From the IMG/VR virus record IMGVR_UViG_3300030116_006445, positions 1 through 30,408 of that record: 30,408 nucleotides of DNA; one strand, written 5' to 3'. The translations under genes were made by a program, and so were the position numbers. This DNA comes from a virus. The notes below the pieces were generated by a model that saw only the letters and a program-made list of their open reading frames with translations, was not told the origin of the DNA and did not search any database. This document shows positions 8,444-27,058 of the stretch, one piece after another; positions within the stretch are counted from its first letter, which is position 1; every line of letters begins with the position of its first letter.

Positions 8444-10186
8444 TTATCCTATTGATGCTTGTTCAACTATATTTCTATCTAAAGCCTGTGCATTTGTAAC
8501 ATCATTGCTCACCACAAATGCCTTGACTGGTTTTTCCTCATTTTCTCCTAGTGCAACTGCAAGCTGATTTTCAGGTGCAGATCCAACCACGTTAAATGCA
8601 GGTGGAGAGCTCTGTTGCACATTTGGAGCAGGAGCACTTCCCCCTCCGCCACCACCACCACCACCGATTGTTGGAGTAGATTTTATTGCAGATATATTTT
8701 TTGCTGTGAATGCTGCTGCAATCCCTGCTTGTATAAATGGATATGGAGGAAAAAATGCAGTGATCGGACTATTCTGTGCGGTTTTAAATGCATTTATCGT
8801 AGCCTCAACGCCTGAAATTGTTGCTTGAGCTATTGCAGCTGCCTTTCCTATTGCAGATCCTTCCCCTGCTAATTGGACTATCCTTCCCAGCGTAGCCTTA
8901 TCCTGTGCCTTTGCCTGTTCTTCAAGCATTTTTTGCCTAGCCTTATCTTGATCCTCAGCTGTTTTTTTAATAGCTCTTGCATTTTTATCTAAAGCAATCA
9001 ATTTTTGCTCAGATTGAAATTTGAAATCTTCAAATGCTTGCTCCGCATCTATCCTCGCCTGAGTTCCAATTTTGTAATTTTCAATTTGATTGAATAATCT
9101 TTCGCCTTCAATTTCCTGCTCCTCTAAAGCAATCATTCGCAATTGCTCTATTCTATCAGATTCATTTTGAATTAGCTCTGCATTTGCATTTTTACTATCA
9201 AATAATCTACGATTAATAGACTCCGCCTCAGTAGCATCTCGATCAATTAATTCCTGCCTCAATGCCTCCTCATTAATTCTTTGCTCAGATAAAAATCCAT
9301 TTATATTTTCCTCAACATCCGCACGATTTCTACGAGCCTCCACCAATGCAGTTTGTAATTCAATATTACTTTTATCAATTTCTAAATTTGCCTGTGCTTT
9401 TCGGACTATTTCATCAGCATTTTTTAGCTGCTCAGTTTGCTGATCTAACAAAATATCTTTTAACCTTTCATTTGCAGCAATTCTATCTTCAATCGATAAT
9501 CTCAAATCATCTCTGATCTGCCTTTCATCCTCTGCTGCTTTTTGATTTTGGAATTGCAATAAATCATTGGTTGCCAAAAGTAATTCTGACTTTGAATTCA
9601 ATTCAGTAATTTCTTGAGCAGCTCTTAATGTTTCACTCGCATAATTACCAACGCTTTTAGTAATTTTTTCTAAGCTTTTATCTGTGCCTGTATAAACATC
9701 AATGACTTCGATTCCAGCTTGTTTTATAGTTTCAAAAGCTCCTGAAAAATTCCCTTCAATTAATTTAGAAAATGATTCACCTACCAATCCAAAAACTTGC
9801 ATCAATTCATTGAATCTATTGATTACACCCTGGATCACTGAATCTTTAAGCTCCGTAAATGTAGGAATAGAAAAATCACTTACAAATCCTACAAGATCAT
9901 TAAAAACAATTTTCAAGCTATTCATTGCAGTACTCAAAGTATCTACAACTGTTTGATTGCTCAAAAATAATTCTGTTAATTTTTCAAATATAACAGCACC
10001 TGCTTTGAACAATCCTCCAGTGAGAATTGCACCTATTCCTGAGAGAGCTTTTCCTATGCCACTGATCCCCTTGGATGTTTGCTTAGATTCTTTATTTATA
10101 TCTTTAACACCCTCCTCAATCTGCTGTAATTTTTTATTAAGATCAGCAAATTTAGCCTCTAATTCTACAACTATTTTTTCCGCCAT
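8444..10186 (-). CDS. Tail tape-measure protein
   Basis: A 580-residue protein, mostly alpha-helical and Gln/Glu/Lys-rich. Residues 1-40 form a coiled coil (EKIVVELEAKFADLNKKLQQ), residues ~43-70 are a hydrophobic Gly-rich segment (ISGIGKALSGIGAILTGGLF), residues ~180-430 are long heptad-containing helices, residues ~440-500 are another Ala/Gly-rich hydrophobic segment (IGKAAAIAQATISGVEATIN), and near residue 510 is a run of nine glycines. This is the layout of a tape measure, which sets tail length and occupies the tube lumen. From the usual relation of about 0.15 nm per residue the tail would be roughly 85-90 nm long. It is followed after 2 bases by the protease gene. Confidence 0.82.
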   Translation of the reverse strand: MAEKIVVELEAKFADLNKKLQQIEEGVKDINKESKQTSKGISGIGKALSGIGAILTGGLFKAGAVIFEKLTELFLSNQTVVDTLSTAMNSLKIVFNDLVGFVSDFSIPTFTELKDSVIQGVINRFNELMQVFGLVGESFSKLIEGNFSGAFETIKQAGIEVIDVYTGTDKSLEKITKSVGNYASETLRAAQEITELNSKSELLLATNDLLQFQNQKAAEDERQIRDDLRLSIEDRIAANERLKDILLDQQTEQLKNADEIVRKAQANLEIDKSNIELQTALVEARRNRADVEENINGFLSEQRINEEALRQELIDRDATEAESINRRLFDSKNANAELIQNESDRIEQLRMIALEEQEIEGERLFNQIENYKIGTQARIDAEQAFEDFKFQSEQKLIALDKNARAIKKTAEDQDKARQKMLEEQAKAQDKATLGRIVQLAGEGSAIGKAAAIAQATISGVEATINAFKTAQNSPITAFFPPYPFIQAGIAAAFTAKNISAIKSTPTIGGGGGGGGGSAPAPNVQQSSPPAFNVVGSAPENQLAVALGENEEKPVKAFVVSNDVTNAQALDRNIVEQASIG

Positions 10187-10326
10187 TTTTTCAAACTTGT
10201 AATTTTAACCACTTCACTCCAGCTTTTTGGAATCTTATTTTTTCCTAAAGCAATATTAATCTGATCCCCTTTCAATTTATTTTCTTTTGCTATTTGCAAA
10301 AGATCAATTACATCCTTTATTATCAT
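10171..10326 (-). CDS. Small basic hypothetical protein, 51 aa
   Basis: ATG at 10326 with a four-base ATGA overlap onto the upstream tail gene; its TAG lies 16 bases inside the tape-measure gene. The peptide is MIIKDVIDLLQIAKENKLKG, then DQINIALGKNKIPKSWSEVV and KITSLKKWRKK. A helix followed by a strongly basic C-terminus suggests a folded small protein. Coupling on both sides supports it. It is placed between a tail protein and the tape measure, so a tail assembly accessory role is plausible but unproven. Confidence 0.68.
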   Translation of the reverse strand: MIIKDVIDLLQIAKENKLKGDQINIALGKNKIPKSWSEVVKITSLKKWRKK

Positions 10327-12557
10327 ATCAAAGGTCTTGTATTATCAATTCTTACTAATTCACTATCTATCGTGACAAATTCCTGAGTAATATTTTCTGC
10401 TATCTCATCTTGATCCTCAACAAAAATCACATCAGATATTACATTTATAAGCTCCAAACTACTCAATCCAGTTTCAAAATTAGTTGTAATTGTATTTATT
10501 TTATATGTATTTGTAAAAATCACAATTATATCCTGCAATTTTAGATCTGATATTACTGAAATCGGAAGATATGCTTTTACTTTTGTGAGCCTTCGATCTA
10601 GCTTGAAAGTATCAACGATATAAGTTTTATAATATGTTTCAAACAAAGTGTTTTTAAAAGCTTTTGCTAAATACTCACCCCTTTCAGAATTGAAATGCAA
10701 GCTTGGAGATTGCAAAGTTGTATCAGTTGGATCAACCTGATTTGATGGAATGTAATAATTAGTTTTCGTGGTTTTTGTAGATGTATCAATTTGAATCGAT
10801 ATCTCAGTTCCACTAGTAACCTTATGAGCATAAAAAAGCAAAGGTTTACCCACTACGCTTGACTGATCTAGATCCACACTCCATCCCCATTGAATTGTCG
10901 TAGCTGTTCCACCAGTTACATTAAACAACCTTTCAAATTTCATGTGCTCAAAAGGCAATTCAATCGAATAACTCCCCTGACCTAAATCCTCCTCACTTCC
11001 ATCATCATTTACCACTGGACTTTTAAAGTGTAATGTTCCCCAAATATCATTTTCTTTTTCGTGATGAGATGCAGCAAAAAATGTTTCTTGACCTTTAAAA
11101 CCTAAATTAATTTGATTATAAGGCATTATCGCATTTACTTCGGATGATTTTTTATCTAAATGCTTAGTAATATCATGACTCTTAGTAGAACTCGCATAAA
11201 AATTATCAAGTGTTTGCACCTTTATATATTTTCCTGTCTGAGCCACCCCATTATCAGTATCCAATTTCTGAGCTGTTAGATTAAACATCTGAAAAAGACC
11301 AGTCAGAAAATCAATTACTTTAATTTCAGGAATCTCCCTGGATGCATTAAAATTCCCTGCTGTGGATGATGTAGCCGATCCAGTTGCTTTAAAAGCCAAA
11401 GTCCTTTTACCCCCAAACGTTCTACTGACCACCTCTATAACCTCTATTTCTAGAGTAAACGTAGCTGCCTGAGTTGCTGCTGTTTCAAAATGAAAAGTGT
11501 ATAATTTATTATCATTTGGCAATTCCATCTCTTGAATCACGCTGCTATCCGCTGATCCTGTGATTTCAGCTGAACTAAAAAATTCAATATCATTATGCCT
11601 TATTATGAGAGTATAAACAGATGAATCCCCAGTTGTTACTCTAACATGCAGCACTCTCTTTACTGTTTTAGTGCTTTTAATTACTCTATTTCGAAAGCCT
11701 AAATGACTCTGCCCTGCAAACTCGTTATTTGATACTCTTATGAATTGAAAATCACTAAAATTTTTGATTGTTAATTCTTTTCTTTGATTATCTGCATCCT
11801 CTATGATATTACCCTTTCTGCGATGCATCCACATATACAAATTATAAAATGAGGAATTTGTTTTTGAAAAAAAATCTGTGCTAAATTTAAAACCATATTG
11901 ATCCTCAATTGCTCTGACAATATAATAAACACGAATAGCAGGTTTCAATTGCTCAAATTTTACACCCTTTACATTTGATCCAACGTGAAGATTGCCCGAT
12001 CCAGCTGTATCATCTCCGCTATTATAAATCAATCTTTCTGTGTGTGTAATTAAAGGAGTAAGAATAACATCAGTAAATGATTCGCCCATCCTCAAAACAT
12101 TGATGGGAGTTTCCATCATATTAATTATGCTTGTAGATGTGTAATCAATATCTATATTTTTAAGATGAACTAGAGCATCTAGCTTATCCTCACCTACTAA
12201 ATCCTTCAATTGAATTGTATCACCGAAAAAAGTAACCCTGTAATTTTCAGGCTTATTATTTTTCATTTGGACACCTTCCAACTTTATCTGCCCTTTTTTA
12301 AAAGGCTTGTAATTCAGATGTAATATCGAATCCTGTTTTTTTCTGCCATCGAATCCTAAAATATTAAAATTATAAAAATGCTTAAATATTTTATTATTAG
12401 TTTTTGATGCAGGAACATTAAAAGTCTGAGTGAAATCAACAAAAACCTTTTTTATATCTCTGAGATTTTGAATTGACTGAGTAAGACTTATAGATTCGTT
12501 ATCGTGTAAATCAACTTGCTCATCATTAACATAAAGCTGCAATCCCTGTGTTTGCAT
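10323..12557 (-). CDS. Large tail protein (distal tail / baseplate-like)
   Basis: A 744-residue protein that starts MQTQGLQLYVNDEQVDLHDN, followed by 'ESISLTQSIQNLRDIKKVF' and 'DFTQTFNVPASKTNNKIFKH'. This opening, with 'L..N...VDL.D' and the 'F.VPAS..NN.IF' motif, is characteristic of a family of large tail proteins in Bacteroidota phages and prophages. The rest is mixed alpha/beta with several jelly-roll-like stretches and a C-terminal 'VKAYLPISVISDLKLQDIIV' region. It lies between two other tail genes and just before the tape measure. It may be the hub or tail-tip protein that contacts the host. No lytic domain is seen. Confidence 0.7.
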   Translation of the reverse strand: MQTQGLQLYVNDEQVDLHDNESISLTQSIQNLRDIKKVFVDFTQTFNVPASKTNNKIFKHFYNFNILGFDGRKKQDSILHLNYKPFKKGQIKLEGVQMKNNKPENYRVTFFGDTIQLKDLVGEDKLDALVHLKNIDIDYTSTSIINMMETPINVLRMGESFTDVILTPLITHTERLIYNSGDDTAGSGNLHVGSNVKGVKFEQLKPAIRVYYIVRAIEDQYGFKFSTDFFSKTNSSFYNLYMWMHRRKGNIIEDADNQRKELTIKNFSDFQFIRVSNNEFAGQSHLGFRNRVIKSTKTVKRVLHVRVTTGDSSVYTLIIRHNDIEFFSSAEITGSADSSVIQEMELPNDNKLYTFHFETAATQAATFTLEIEVIEVVSRTFGGKRTLAFKATGSATSSTAGNFNASREIPEIKVIDFLTGLFQMFNLTAQKLDTDNGVAQTGKYIKVQTLDNFYASSTKSHDITKHLDKKSSEVNAIMPYNQINLGFKGQETFFAASHHEKENDIWGTLHFKSPVVNDDGSEEDLGQGSYSIELPFEHMKFERLFNVTGGTATTIQWGWSVDLDQSSVVGKPLLFYAHKVTSGTEISIQIDTSTKTTKTNYYIPSNQVDPTDTTLQSPSLHFNSERGEYLAKAFKNTLFETYYKTYIVDTFKLDRRLTKVKAYLPISVISDLKLQDIIVIFTNTYKINTITTNFETGLSSLELINVISDVIFVEDQDEIAENITQEFVTIDSELVRIDNTRPLI

Positions 12558-16150: not shown

Positions 16151-16428
16151 AATGTTTTTACAAATATTGGTGTTAACAACTCATTCTCCTCCATTTTAAG
16201 CTGTGCAAAATCTTCAAGCCAATCAAGAGCCTCATCAAAAGTAACATCATTATCGCTTTTCATTATGCAATCAATGCCTTTCCAAAAATCATAAATTGCA
16301 ACTTTAGGATTTGAACAAGTTACTCCAATCAGTGCATCATCAAATCCATCTGATAAAACAATCTCCTCGCTATCATCTAAAAAATTCCTCTCATAAAGAG
16401 AATCAATAATTTTTGTTTTGTCTTGCAT
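16147..16428 (-). CDS. Small acidic marine-phage type protein, 93 aa
   Basis: MQDKTKIIDSLYERNFLDDS is followed by 'IVLSDGFDDALIGVTCSNPK', 'AIYDFWKGIDCIMKSDNDVT', 'FDEALDWLEDF' and 'ENELLTPIFVKTL'. The combination 'DGFDDALIG', 'AIYD...CI..' and 'EALDWLEDF...TPIFV' is familiar from a small protein widespread in marine phages and of unknown function. Its first 26 bases are also read in another frame as the end of the frameshifted chaperone, so translation of the two may be coupled. No enzymatic motif recognised. Confidence 0.7.
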   Translation of the reverse strand: MQDKTKIIDSLYERNFLDDSEEIVLSDGFDDALIGVTCSNPKVAIYDFWKGIDCIMKSDNDVTFDEALDWLEDFAQLKMEENELLTPIFVKTL

Positions 16429-16618
16429 TTTTTATCATTTGCTTTTCCAAATCATTTTTTTCTTTTTCAAAAGCCAGCCATGTTAAACACTGATTGATAT
16501 TTAATTTTTCAACTTTTTCAATTTCACTTATTTGACCTTTGCAAAGACTCCATAAGGATTGAAACCATCCCCATTTTTCTGAAAATCCTGCATTTGCATC
16601 ATAAGATCTTGACTCCTC
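16403..16618 (-). CDS. -1 frame extension of the tail chaperone (gpGT-like)
   Basis: This open frame has no ATG before its conserved-looking core; its only internal ATG lies near the C-terminus. It is reached from the 209-residue protein by a -1 shift at 16618-16624. After the slip it encodes 71 residues: EESRSYDANAGFSEKWGWFQ, then SLWSLCKGQISEIEKVEKLN, INQCLTWLAFEKEKNDLEKQ and MIKNARQNKNY. 'KWGW..SL..L' and 'CLTWLAFEKEK.DLE' are protein-like motifs that I recall at the end of similar phage proteins. The fusion would be 251 residues, the counterpart of lambda gpGT, in which the T domain recruits the tail tube. It ends inside the start of the next gene. Confidence 0.75.
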   Translation of the reverse strand, partial: EESRSYDANAGFSEKWGWFQSLWSLCKGQISEIEKVEKLNINQCLTWLAFEKEKNDLEKQMIKNARQNKNY

Positions 16619-17157
16619 TTTTTTCGAGAATAGCGAAGGATAACTTTCAAAAGTTCTTTTCTTAAATTGTAAAAAAAAAACACTGATCCAAAAGCAGCAT
16701 CAAGCGGCATTTTTTTCATAGTATCATCAATATTTCCATCGTAATCCTCAATCAAATATGATCCTCTGAATTTTTCTTTTACTGGTCTATACAATACCCT
16801 CATTGCTTTATGCATTGTTTGCCAATCAGCAAAATAAGTATCTGCATCTACATACTCACCAAAAGTCATTTCACTCAGCTGAGGATGGAATCCATATTCT
16901 TTGCCATTGATTTTGAATATATTGATCAATCTTGGCTTTTCATCAAACATTTTGGATAATTTACTTATCACATTCTTGATTGATGAATATTTAATTTTAT
17001 CGACATCCTGCAAAGGAATGCCGCAAAATATCTCAACCATTTTTTTATACATAAAATCCTGATTGGATTCCTTCACATTTATTTTCGAAAATTTTTGATA
17101 TTGACCTAAATTGATCTCACTTAATTTCGTAGGCACAATAATTTTTTGACTTCTCAT
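16528..17157 (-). CDS. Tail-assembly chaperone, zero-frame product (gpG-like)
   Basis: A 209-residue protein: MRSQKIIVPTKLSEINLGQY, 'MVEIFCGIPLQDVDKIKYSS', 'GKEYGFHPQLSEMTFGEYVD', 'HKAMRVLYRPVKEKF' and 'MKKMPLDAAFGSVFFFYNL'. This order of motifs is that of a chaperone-like family of marine and Bacteroidota phages ('LSEI.LGQYQKF', 'FGEYVD.DTY', 'MPLD...GS.FFFYNL'). The zero-frame tail (SQDLMMQMQDFQKNGDGFNP) is low in conservation signals, while the -1 frame carries recognisable motifs, so two products are expected. It is the first gene after candidate promoter B, with the ATG only 10 bases past the ACGTTT box. It would bind the tape measure during tail assembly. Confidence 0.75.
   Translation of the reverse strand: MRSQKIIVPTKLSEINLGQYQKFSKINVKESNQDFMYKKMVEIFCGIPLQDVDKIKYSSIKNVISKLSKMFDEKPRLINIFKINGKEYGFHPQLSEMTFGEYVDADTYFADWQTMHKAMRVLYRPVKEKFRGSYLIEDYDGNIDDTMKKMPLDAAFGSVFFFYNLRKELLKVILRYSRKKRSQDLMMQMQDFQKNGDGFNPYGVFAKVK
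16618..16624 (-). promoter_or_regulatory. -1 ribosomal frameshift site A AAA AAG
   Basis: In the zero frame of the chaperone, codons 178-180 read CGA AAA AAG, giving the classic slippery heptamer A AAA AAG known from dnaX. Slipping back one base leads into a frame that stays open for 71 codons to 16403. The -1 frame is already open about 90 bases upstream, where a run of ten T (16671-16680) offers a second possible slip site. No convincing pseudoknot was assigned by eye. Confidence 0.72.
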
Positions 17158-17201: not shown

Positions 17202-18389
17202 TTACAAAATATGATATTCCCCTTGATACGGATTTGATAATTGAAAACCAATCGCATACCTCATAGCATCGATGCAATGACAAAAAGCATCTATCGGAGT
17301 CTGACTTTTTTTCTCTAGCCAAACATACTTTTTTAATTCACTAATTAAATTTTTACTTTCAGGATCAACAATAATCTGATAATCTTGCATCATGCTGATT
17401 CCAAAATTTACTGATCCCTGACCTTTGATTGATGATTTTATATTTGATGTTTTTGACAATTCTAAAATCAGCCTTTTTTCTGCCGAATCCCCAATGATTA
17501 AATTATCTCCAGCAAATCGCTTGTTCAGCTTTGCAATTTCTGATGTAACGAGATTTGATTTATAAAAACATTCTTTTGCATAAATTATTTTTCTCTTTTT
17601 ATCAATAGACGTTTGCACCAAAGTTGTAGGATCATTCATTCCATAATCTTGACCAAACACAGATTTTGATACCTCTTTAAATTCACCCTCAATCCAATTT
17701 TGAAATACTGCCCCTGACAATTTGCCAACTTCTCCCAATCCATAAACTTGATACCAATTTTTAAAAAATTCATTCCCCTGATCTGCTTTAGCTTTTGCTT
17801 TTTTTATTTCTTTTATTGCAGCAGCAGGAGCTAAATATTTTCCAAACCCCTCTGATTCTTTATCTACATTCAAACTATCTTTATAAGTAAGAACGATCCA
17901 ATCTGTATCGGGATCATCTTTTAATTCAGTATGTGCCCAAAATTCAGCAGTAGGATTGAAATCTAGAATTATAAAATCATTCGTTCGAGTAGCCAATTGC
18001 AAATATGTTTCATAACTCAAAGCATTTGCCTCATTACAAAAAAGAATATCTCTCCTTGCACCTCTCAATTTAGATTCAACATCAACGGAAAAAAATTCCA
18101 ACGTAGATCCATTATCAAACTGATATTTCATTGTGGATTTATTAAATTGATTTGGATAAAATTGATTTACCGATTCCATGATTTTCAACCAATCTTTCAT
18201 CGCTCCCCTTCTCAAATGTGGAATCGTCTCAGAAACAATTGAGCAATCCTTTTTTACAGTCATTAAATACACACTCAGATAAGCCAAGATTGAGAACGTC
18301 TTAGATGCACTTGTTCCCCCTTGTACTACCCTGATCCTTTTTTTTAGATCACGAATCTTCTCTAGTGCCCTTGTAAATTGGAACATCAA
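17202..18389 (-). CDS. terL: Terminase large subunit
   Basis: A 395-residue DNA-packaging motor protein. The ATPase domain has Walker A GGTSASKT (24-31) after 'RIRVVQ', Walker B ILFCNE (115-120) with catalytic Glu120, and a coupling region 'IILDFNPTAEFW' (140-151). The C-terminal RNase H-like nuclease has Asp248 in 'FGQDYGMNDPTTLV', Asp301 in 'LIIGDSAEKRLI' and Asp374 in 'DAFCHCIDAMRYAIG'. It translocates DNA into the prohead and cuts it. It overlaps the small-subunit gene by 41 bases. At 395 residues it is slightly short for the family but all key motifs are present. Promoter B follows its stop, so packaging and tail genes may be separately controlled. Confidence 0.93.
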   Translation of the reverse strand: MMFQFTRALEKIRDLKKRIRVVQGGTSASKTFSILAYLSVYLMTVKKDCSIVSETIPHLRRGAMKDWLKIMESVNQFYPNQFNKSTMKYQFDNGSTLEFFSVDVESKLRGARRDILFCNEANALSYETYLQLATRTNDFIILDFNPTAEFWAHTELKDDPDTDWIVLTYKDSLNVDKESEGFGKYLAPAAAIKEIKKAKAKADQGNEFFKNWYQVYGLGEVGKLSGAVFQNWIEGEFKEVSKSVFGQDYGMNDPTTLVQTSIDKKRKIIYAKECFYKSNLVTSEIAKLNKRFAGDNLIIGDSAEKRLILELSKTSNIKSSIKGQGSVNFGISMMQDYQIIVDPESKNLISELKKYVWLEKKSQTPIDAFCHCIDAMRYAIGFQLSNPYQGEYHIL

Positions 18390-26588: not shown

Positions 26589-26671
26589 TTTTTTGCAGGC
26601 TTATTCCGACCTTTTTTCTGTGCTCTTGTACAATGAGAGTATTTGCCCCTCCTATTTAACGACTTGCCCAT
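26585..26671 (-). CDS. Very small basic peptide, 28 aa
   Basis: ATG at 26671 and TGA at 26585, sharing ATGA with the holin-like gene. The peptide is MGKSLNRRGKYSHCTRAQ followed by KKGRNKPAKK: 11 basic residues in 28. It fills the gap between endolysin and holin. Coupling and packing support translation; the size limits confidence. It might be a nucleic-acid-binding or membrane-active peptide. Confidence 0.5.
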   Translation of the reverse strand: MGKSLNRRGKYSHCTRAQKKGRNKPAKK

Positions 26672-26695
26672 ATATCAAGCGTATTTCCCACAGTA

Positions 26696-27058
26696 TTAGT
26701 AAGTCCACATGACATTTTGAGCTTTTGCCTCATCATTATCAGCATGTACAAACGAGTTGCTGACACCGAGTCTAGTGAATCCAGCCTCAATAAGCGATCT
26801 AACAATAACGAATCTCTCTCTTGAATTACTCGCTGCCACATCAACCGCTTTTCCAATGCAATGAGAGCTTCCCTCTTTTCCTCCGACTGCTTGATTTCTC
26901 TCGATACTTCTCCAGCCGCTATTGATTCTAAACGGGACACTGCCTGAAATCCTGCGAGCCTCATCGAGCATGAGCAGCAACTCAGGATCCATGTAGCTAC
27001 CACTACCAGGCACATCAGGGGAATCAAATTCCTCAAGTTTAAAATATTTTAATTCCAT
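26696..27058 (-). CDS. Peptidase M15 endolysin
   Basis: A 120-residue enzyme of the M15 type (M15_3-like D-Ala-D-Ala or L,D/D,D-peptidase). MELKYFKLEEFDSPDVPGSG is the usual N-terminus; 'FRINSGWRSIERNQAVGGKE' (43-62) carries the substrate Arg; 'SSHCIGKAVDV' gives zinc ligands His66 and Asp73; 'FVHAD' gives His105. It cuts peptide bridges in murein at lysis. The length fits a single catalytic domain without a wall-binding module, as usual for phages of Gram-negative hosts. It overlaps the preceding small membrane gene by 20 bases. Confidence 0.88.
   Translation of the reverse strand: MELKYFKLEEFDSPDVPGSGSYMDPELLLMLDEARRISGSVPFRINSGWRSIERNQAVGGKEGSSHCIGKAVDVAASNSRERFVIVRSLIEAGFTRLGVSNSFVHADNDEAKAQNVMWTY

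Follow-up and report, generated by a model that had tools for sequence, protein, structure and literature searches.

A conserved run of nine or ten T's as the putative slip site of a candidate tail-chaperone gene in Bacteroidota siphoviruses

Frameshifting in tail chaperones is known as a ribosomal event. In phage lambda, gpG and gpGT are a short product and a −1 fusion, the shift that separates them falls towards the end of G, and the tape measure gene follows directly (PMC5009743). In Thermus thermophilus dnaX and in the 9A/9T genes of IS elements, two products are made by polymerase slippage at a coding run of nine A or T whose length is conserved among homologues (PMC1088944, PMC5009743). 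A 9A or 9T run which is conserved in all homologues has been interpreted as pointing to purposeful transcriptional slippage (PMC1088944). Bacterial RNA polymerase maintains a hybrid of 9–10 bp and slips efficiently on nine A or T (PMC5009743); E. coli RNA polymerase favours poly(T), and at the active runs which were measured insertions outnumbered deletions about threefold (PMC6260861). We found no earlier report of transcriptional slippage in tail chaperones in the open-licence literature, which misses most subscription journals.

We examined a gene on a viral contig from IMG/VR (record IMGVR_UViG_3300030116_006445), the whole 30,408 nucleotides of which were analysed and are referred to as the window. 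The gene (17157–16403, minus strand) is probably a siphovirus tail chaperone of Bacteroidota, from which two products would be made through RNA polymerase slippage at a run of ten T's (Table 1). Its −1 frame is open from 16699 to 16406, bounded upstream by TGA at 16702–16700 and downstream by its own stop, and codes for EKWGW and QCLTWLAFEKEK; past the slip it runs for 228 nt without ATG, GTG or TTG. A shift at either the T10 run or an A AAA AAG heptamer further downstream predicts a fusion of 251 aa, which shares residues 1–162 with the 0-frame product. An earlier note on this DNA had described the 209-aa product ending at 16528, a −1 frame without a usable start, a run of ten T's as a possible slip site, the 251-aa fusion and the placement right after terL, and each of these was recovered; the gpG/gpGT-like logic which it proposed for a Bacteroidota-type phage is supported by the 0/−1 relation of the two overlapping frames. 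The open −1 frame and its EKWGW motif also stand, with the opening moved from about 16710 to 16699.

Table 1 Position of the gene, its parts and two neighbouring genes in the window, with the evidence for each.
Feature	Position	Strand	Evidence
0-frame ORF, short product of 209 aa	16528..17157	-	phrog_32199, E 1.5e-20; AF2 model, pLDDT 88.7
T10 run, putative slip site, with in-phase T TTT TTT at 16678-16672	16671..16680	-	T9/T10 in 238/238 distinct contexts, 329 loci
-1-frame extension, 89 codons, from TTA at 16672 to stop TGA at 16405-16403	16403..16672	-	kept in all relatives; phrog_38404, E 1.4e-4
Overlap, putatively read in both frames after the slip	16528..16672	-	substitution pattern and synonymous resampling in relatives
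A AAA AAG heptamer, rejected slip site	16618..16624	-	not conserved; chance-level frequency in the window
terL, immediately upstream	17202..18389	-	PHROG terminase large subunit matches
Candidate tape measure protein, 580 aa, weak assignment	8444..10186	-	phrog_21537 (virion structural protein), E 1.8e-19; position

We compared the gene to its relatives. The first 168 relatives to be scanned were 80 IMG/VR matches to the fusion, a further 80 retrieved by an alignment search, six bacterial genome loci and two cultured Nonlabens phages, P12024L and P12024S. Two further scans and two Flavobacteriaceae genomes brought the total to 329 loci, representing 238 distinct contexts. Every one of the 329 loci showed the 0/−1 relation between the frames, and each distinct context had a run of T9 or T10, with T9 in most relatives; the cultured Nonlabens phages and the two Flavobacteriaceae genomes carried the same T run. 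None of the 329 loci had fused frames, a run shorter than T9 or a run longer than T10. A start codon between the slip and KWGW was lacking in 228 of the 238 contexts, indicating that the −1 frame there is read only by recoding. Fusion of the two frames in homologues and loss of the −1 motifs in relatives had been named beforehand as observations that would speak against the arrangement; no close relative was fused and the −1 motifs were conserved. This conservation indicates that the two overlapping frames are real, are widely kept in relatives and form an unannotated recoded phage gene.

Past the slip the 0 frame continues for 47 codons in the window, for 53–76 codons in most relatives and for 25 codons in the Nonlabens phages, so that the short form has a C-terminal tail of its own. 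Substitutions in the overlap at 0-frame positions 1, 2 and 3 numbered 824, 1435 and 1371, unlike those in the single-frame upstream part (1148, 697 and 2906) and unlike those at −1 positions 1, 2 and 3 of the −1-only part (534, 273 and 1023). The openness of the 0 frame was also tested by resampling synonymous codons of the −1 frame in 36 diverse members, and in 33 of these the 0 frame was open for longer than expected (P < 0.05; median P = 0.0055). For the window alone, openness of the 0 frame past the slip was not informative by the same resampling (P = 1.0). By these two measures the overlap is dual-coding, both frames being constrained past the slip in relatives. The AF2 model of the short product places the slip point inside a long helix (residues 152–195); the −1 domain modelled alone gave a poor model (pLDDT 63.7) and was left out of the fold search.

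We also examined how the T run varies between members. It begins at codon position 1, 2 or 3 and its length is always at least 9: loss of the 3′ T goes together with a 5′ TTT codon (TTT TTT TTT CTG), and loss of 5′ T's with a longer 3′ side (GGT TTT TTT TTG; AGT TTT TTT TTT CAT). Such register shifts losing a T at one end are few, with two lineages on each side, and a pairwise sign or tree test on them cannot reach significance; the product of the state frequencies is about 2e−4, which is rough arithmetic that assumes independence. Exchange of TTT for TTC in the A-site codon would be silent in both frames in 187 of the 238 contexts, and 21% of upstream Phe codons are TTC, yet in none of the 238 contexts was the run broken below 9 by a silent TTC. 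Other conserved Phe codons on the same tree underwent 39, 28, 8, 23 and 26 TTT/TTC changes, the P-site Phe codon underwent none, and the A-site Phe codon underwent one, at the end of a T10 and with the run left unbroken. In other ORFs of these loci we counted 343 T runs of length 6, 47 of length 7, 7 of length 8 and 2 of length 9, so that runs of nine or more are all but absent there. Both T9 cases were terminators where an ORF start had been misplaced, and most of the other T9 runs came after hairpins a short way upstream of the gene. A conserved RNA structure was sought both upstream and downstream by pseudoknot-free folding and none was found (mean folding z about 0.15 in 36 diverse members; z = 1.3 and −0.2 in the window), and an Rfam search of the region gave no match.

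Leaving the slip site aside, we also counted long A runs in the 238 distinct loci. None of ten or more A was present, with 46 expected, and those of nine or more A numbered 33, with 118 expected. Such runs are thus strongly avoided in these phages, as is expected if long runs cause slippage. A stop in the +1 frame 0–3 codons after the T run, found in 238/238 contexts, was considered as a trap for deletion transcripts and rejected, since 99% of sequences with the same coding have one too.

The earlier note had placed the slip at the A AAA AAG heptamer and listed the T run second. The heptamer is a strong motif and is present in the correct phase (16624–16618, X_XXY_YYZ). However, an in-phase A AAA AAG was found in none of the first 168 relatives, including the nearest one, so that the alignment of homologues which the note had proposed as a check bears out both frames and not the heptamer. 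The motif is also common on this AT-rich strand: AAAAAAG occurs 40 times on the minus strand of the window, against 42 times for the pattern read backwards. Between the T run and the heptamer, the −1 frame codes for LQFKKRTFESYPSLFS, in which the family consensus L-x-F-[KR]-x-R...Y..LF is retained. In L089, the nearest relative (62% identity across the tree columns), the A-rich place reads GCC AAA AAA ATG, with no in-phase heptamer, and the −1 frame from the T run to that place shares FKKRT and YP.LFS with the window. As conserved −1 residues lie upstream of A AAA AAG, the shift must precede it, at the T run. The T TTT TTT inside T9/T10 is the only in-phase heptamer common to all 168 relatives, and the junction F161-F162-L163-F165 is invariant in the protein alignment. 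On this pattern of conservation the slip site is the T10 run (16680–16671); A AAA AAG was rejected on its lack of conservation and its chance-level frequency, and a ribosomal −1 frameshift there is very improbable. Homopolymer runs are prone to both sequencing error and phase variation of the DNA, either of which would mean that a true or alternative genome has the frames fused. The uniform 0/−1 relation and T9/T10 run, without one fused frame among loci from cultured phages, genomes and many metagenomes, are a strong argument against both, and with the two frames also constrained past the slip in relatives we regard this explanation as extremely unlikely.

The T run itself could be read by either machine. 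Ribosomal −1 frameshifting at U UUU UUU within it, in the style of lambda gpG/gpGT and with no stimulator, is possible, if doubtful. On this view the T9 is kept for the sake of the heptamer and of the residues that flank it: an in-phase U UUU UUU is part of any T9, T TTT TTT is present in all loci, flanking V/I/L and Y/W codons provide extra T's in most members, and lambda-type shifts need no stimulator (PMC5009743). E. coli ribosomes, however, slip on the tetramer U_UUC no less readily than on U_UUU, and they shift efficiently at the heptamer U_UUU_UUC (PMC4066793). A ribosomal site should then tolerate TTC, whereas in no member is the run shortened by an A-site TTC, a change that is mostly silent and on which E. 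coli ribosomes slip; the ends of the run move as well, and its length stays at 9 or more. The slipping preferences of E. coli serve here as a guide and may not apply in Bacteroidota. The feature which appears to be selected is an unbroken homopolymer of at least 9 T, present in all homologues (238/238 contexts) and intact where a break would be silent, and this points to transcriptional slippage. The near absence of T9 runs from other ORFs and the lack of an RNA-structure signal in pseudoknot-free folding fit the same reading. Judging from these sequences, we put the chance that transcriptional slippage is the main mechanism somewhat above even, and the "programmed −1 frameshift" of the earlier note is doubtful in its ribosomal sense.

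Under transcriptional slippage, RNA polymerase would slip on the T10 run and add a U (or make an equivalent +1 mod 3 change) in some transcripts, an inserted U being the change required to reach the −1 frame. Normal translation of the altered transcripts would give the 251-aa fusion, with its last 89 residues from the −1 frame, and unaltered transcripts would give the 209-aa short form in the 0 frame. By analogy with lambda gpG/gpGT, the short form may coat the tape measure protein and the fusion may recruit tail-tube subunits. That it is the polymerase which slips, and that the product acts as a chaperone, are both inferences. There is perhaps an even chance that a large lineage of Bacteroidota siphoviruses sets its tail-chaperone ratio in this way, by RNA polymerase stuttering on T9–T10, with a short form that has its own dual-coded C-terminal tail of about 50–60 codons.

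We compared the products to protein families and structures to assign a function. The 0-frame product falls in phrog_32199 and the −1 domain in phrog_38404, neither of which has an annotated function. No significant family was found in Pfam or NCBIfam, and no credible match in the PDB by fold search or by profile search of PDB sequences. The best fold matches in BFVD were uncharacterised phage proteins, and the only named matches near the top were tail assembly (chaperone) proteins, which were weak (E = 0.036 and 0.08). In the window the gene comes directly after terL, with the candidate tape measure gene several genes downstream, and in Cellulophaga phage phi46:1 the order is terL, the gene, small genes, structural genes and tape measure. 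The phi46:1 gene product, gp16, precedes two structural proteins confirmed by MS/MS and the tape measure protein; it has no note of MS/MS detection in virions, though its neighbours have one. From its position, the weak fold matches and the gpG/gpGT-like logic, the product is likely a tail chaperone, and the pattern agrees with a tail chaperone, a function which we infer, in both single-frame and recoded forms. Some other role in morphogenesis, with the recoding still real, would fit the lack of a strong match to any proven tail chaperone and a gene which follows terL and is not adjacent to the tape measure gene. We consider such a role unlikely, as a two-product logic is typical of tail chaperones, the named fold matches are to tail assembly proteins and the late-operon position in phi46:1 lies upstream of the structural genes and the tape measure.

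Several further observations were made in these genomes. Flavobacterium phage 6H gp10, a fold match, was considered as a T-run relative and set aside, as its frames do not have the T-run arrangement. In 6H (L333), about 300 unannotated bases (10048–10351, minus strand) follow gp10, which is 191 aa long and precedes the tape measure gene; they contain a −1 frame of about 110 open codons that is cut by a stop immediately following T TTT TTC, possibly reflecting recoding of another kind or an error in the sequence. Many relatives (e.g. L111, L166 and L263) have a hairpin followed by T9, resembling an intrinsic terminator, about 500–570 bases upstream of the slip. Its place just upstream of the gene suggests that the gene often starts a new transcription unit; in the window, the 44 bases between terL and the gene have no such T run. 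Elsewhere in the window, two minus-strand ORFs at 26656–27036 and 26696–27058 (126 and 120 aa) lie in different frames and overlap over nearly their whole length, and the second of these resembles, by eye only, a peptidase M15-type endolysin.

If transcriptional slippage is the mechanism, the ratio of the two products would be set at the level of the mRNA, and RNA sequencing could measure it directly. The T run also offers a simple marker with which to find and correct this gene, which current annotation splits, truncates or misses, among several hundred viral contigs as well as cultured phages, and the long dual-coding overlap would be a clean case for the study of overlapping genes in DNA phages.

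Compared with known systems, the locus is like lambda gpG/gpGT (PMC5009743) in having a short product and a −1 fusion with a shared N-terminus, no visible stimulator and a tail morphogenesis context. Two overlapping frames which would give such a pair, known here from sequence alone, were present at 329/329 loci. It differs from lambda in that the shift occurs at an invariant T9–T10 run with the 0 frame continuing well beyond it, in that the gene stands after terL and several genes before the tape measure, in that the mechanism is probably transcriptional and in that the overlap is dual-coding. The gene is gpG/gpGT-like in its working; we do not claim membership of that family, as the fold matches are weak and the gene differs from G both in where it is located and in how far along the ORF the shift falls. 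With T. thermophilus dnaX and the IS-element genes it shares a conserved coding run of at least nine, here T9/T10 and in the late operon of a DNA phage, where slippage is putative. Direct homologues in both phrog_32199 and phrog_38404 are ORFs 40–41 of Nonlabens phage P12024L (JQ823123) and ORFs 38–39 of P12024S (JQ823122), which have CTT TTT TTT TAT and 0/−1 frames right after terL; they differ in their shorter 0 frame past the slip and were annotated as two hypothetical proteins each, so that the recoding was missed. In both phages the annotated second ORF (P12024L ORF 41, L081 6525–6692; P12024S ORF 39, L082 6537–6704) is the 3′ part of the −1 frame, read from an internal ATG, and belongs as a recoded product with ORF 40 and ORF 38, respectively. 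Phage phi46:1 gp16 and a Galbibacter prophage ORF likewise follow terL and have a C-terminal domain related to the −1 domain, but are encoded in a single reading frame with no T run. Three such single-frame relatives were located after terL, in Galbibacter (L175, G002:C14:126500-130500, minus strand), in phi46:1 (L334, 8836–9366) and in Elizabethkingia phage TCUEAP1 (L335, 2164–2706); without T runs, these are the in-frame counterparts of the recoded gene.
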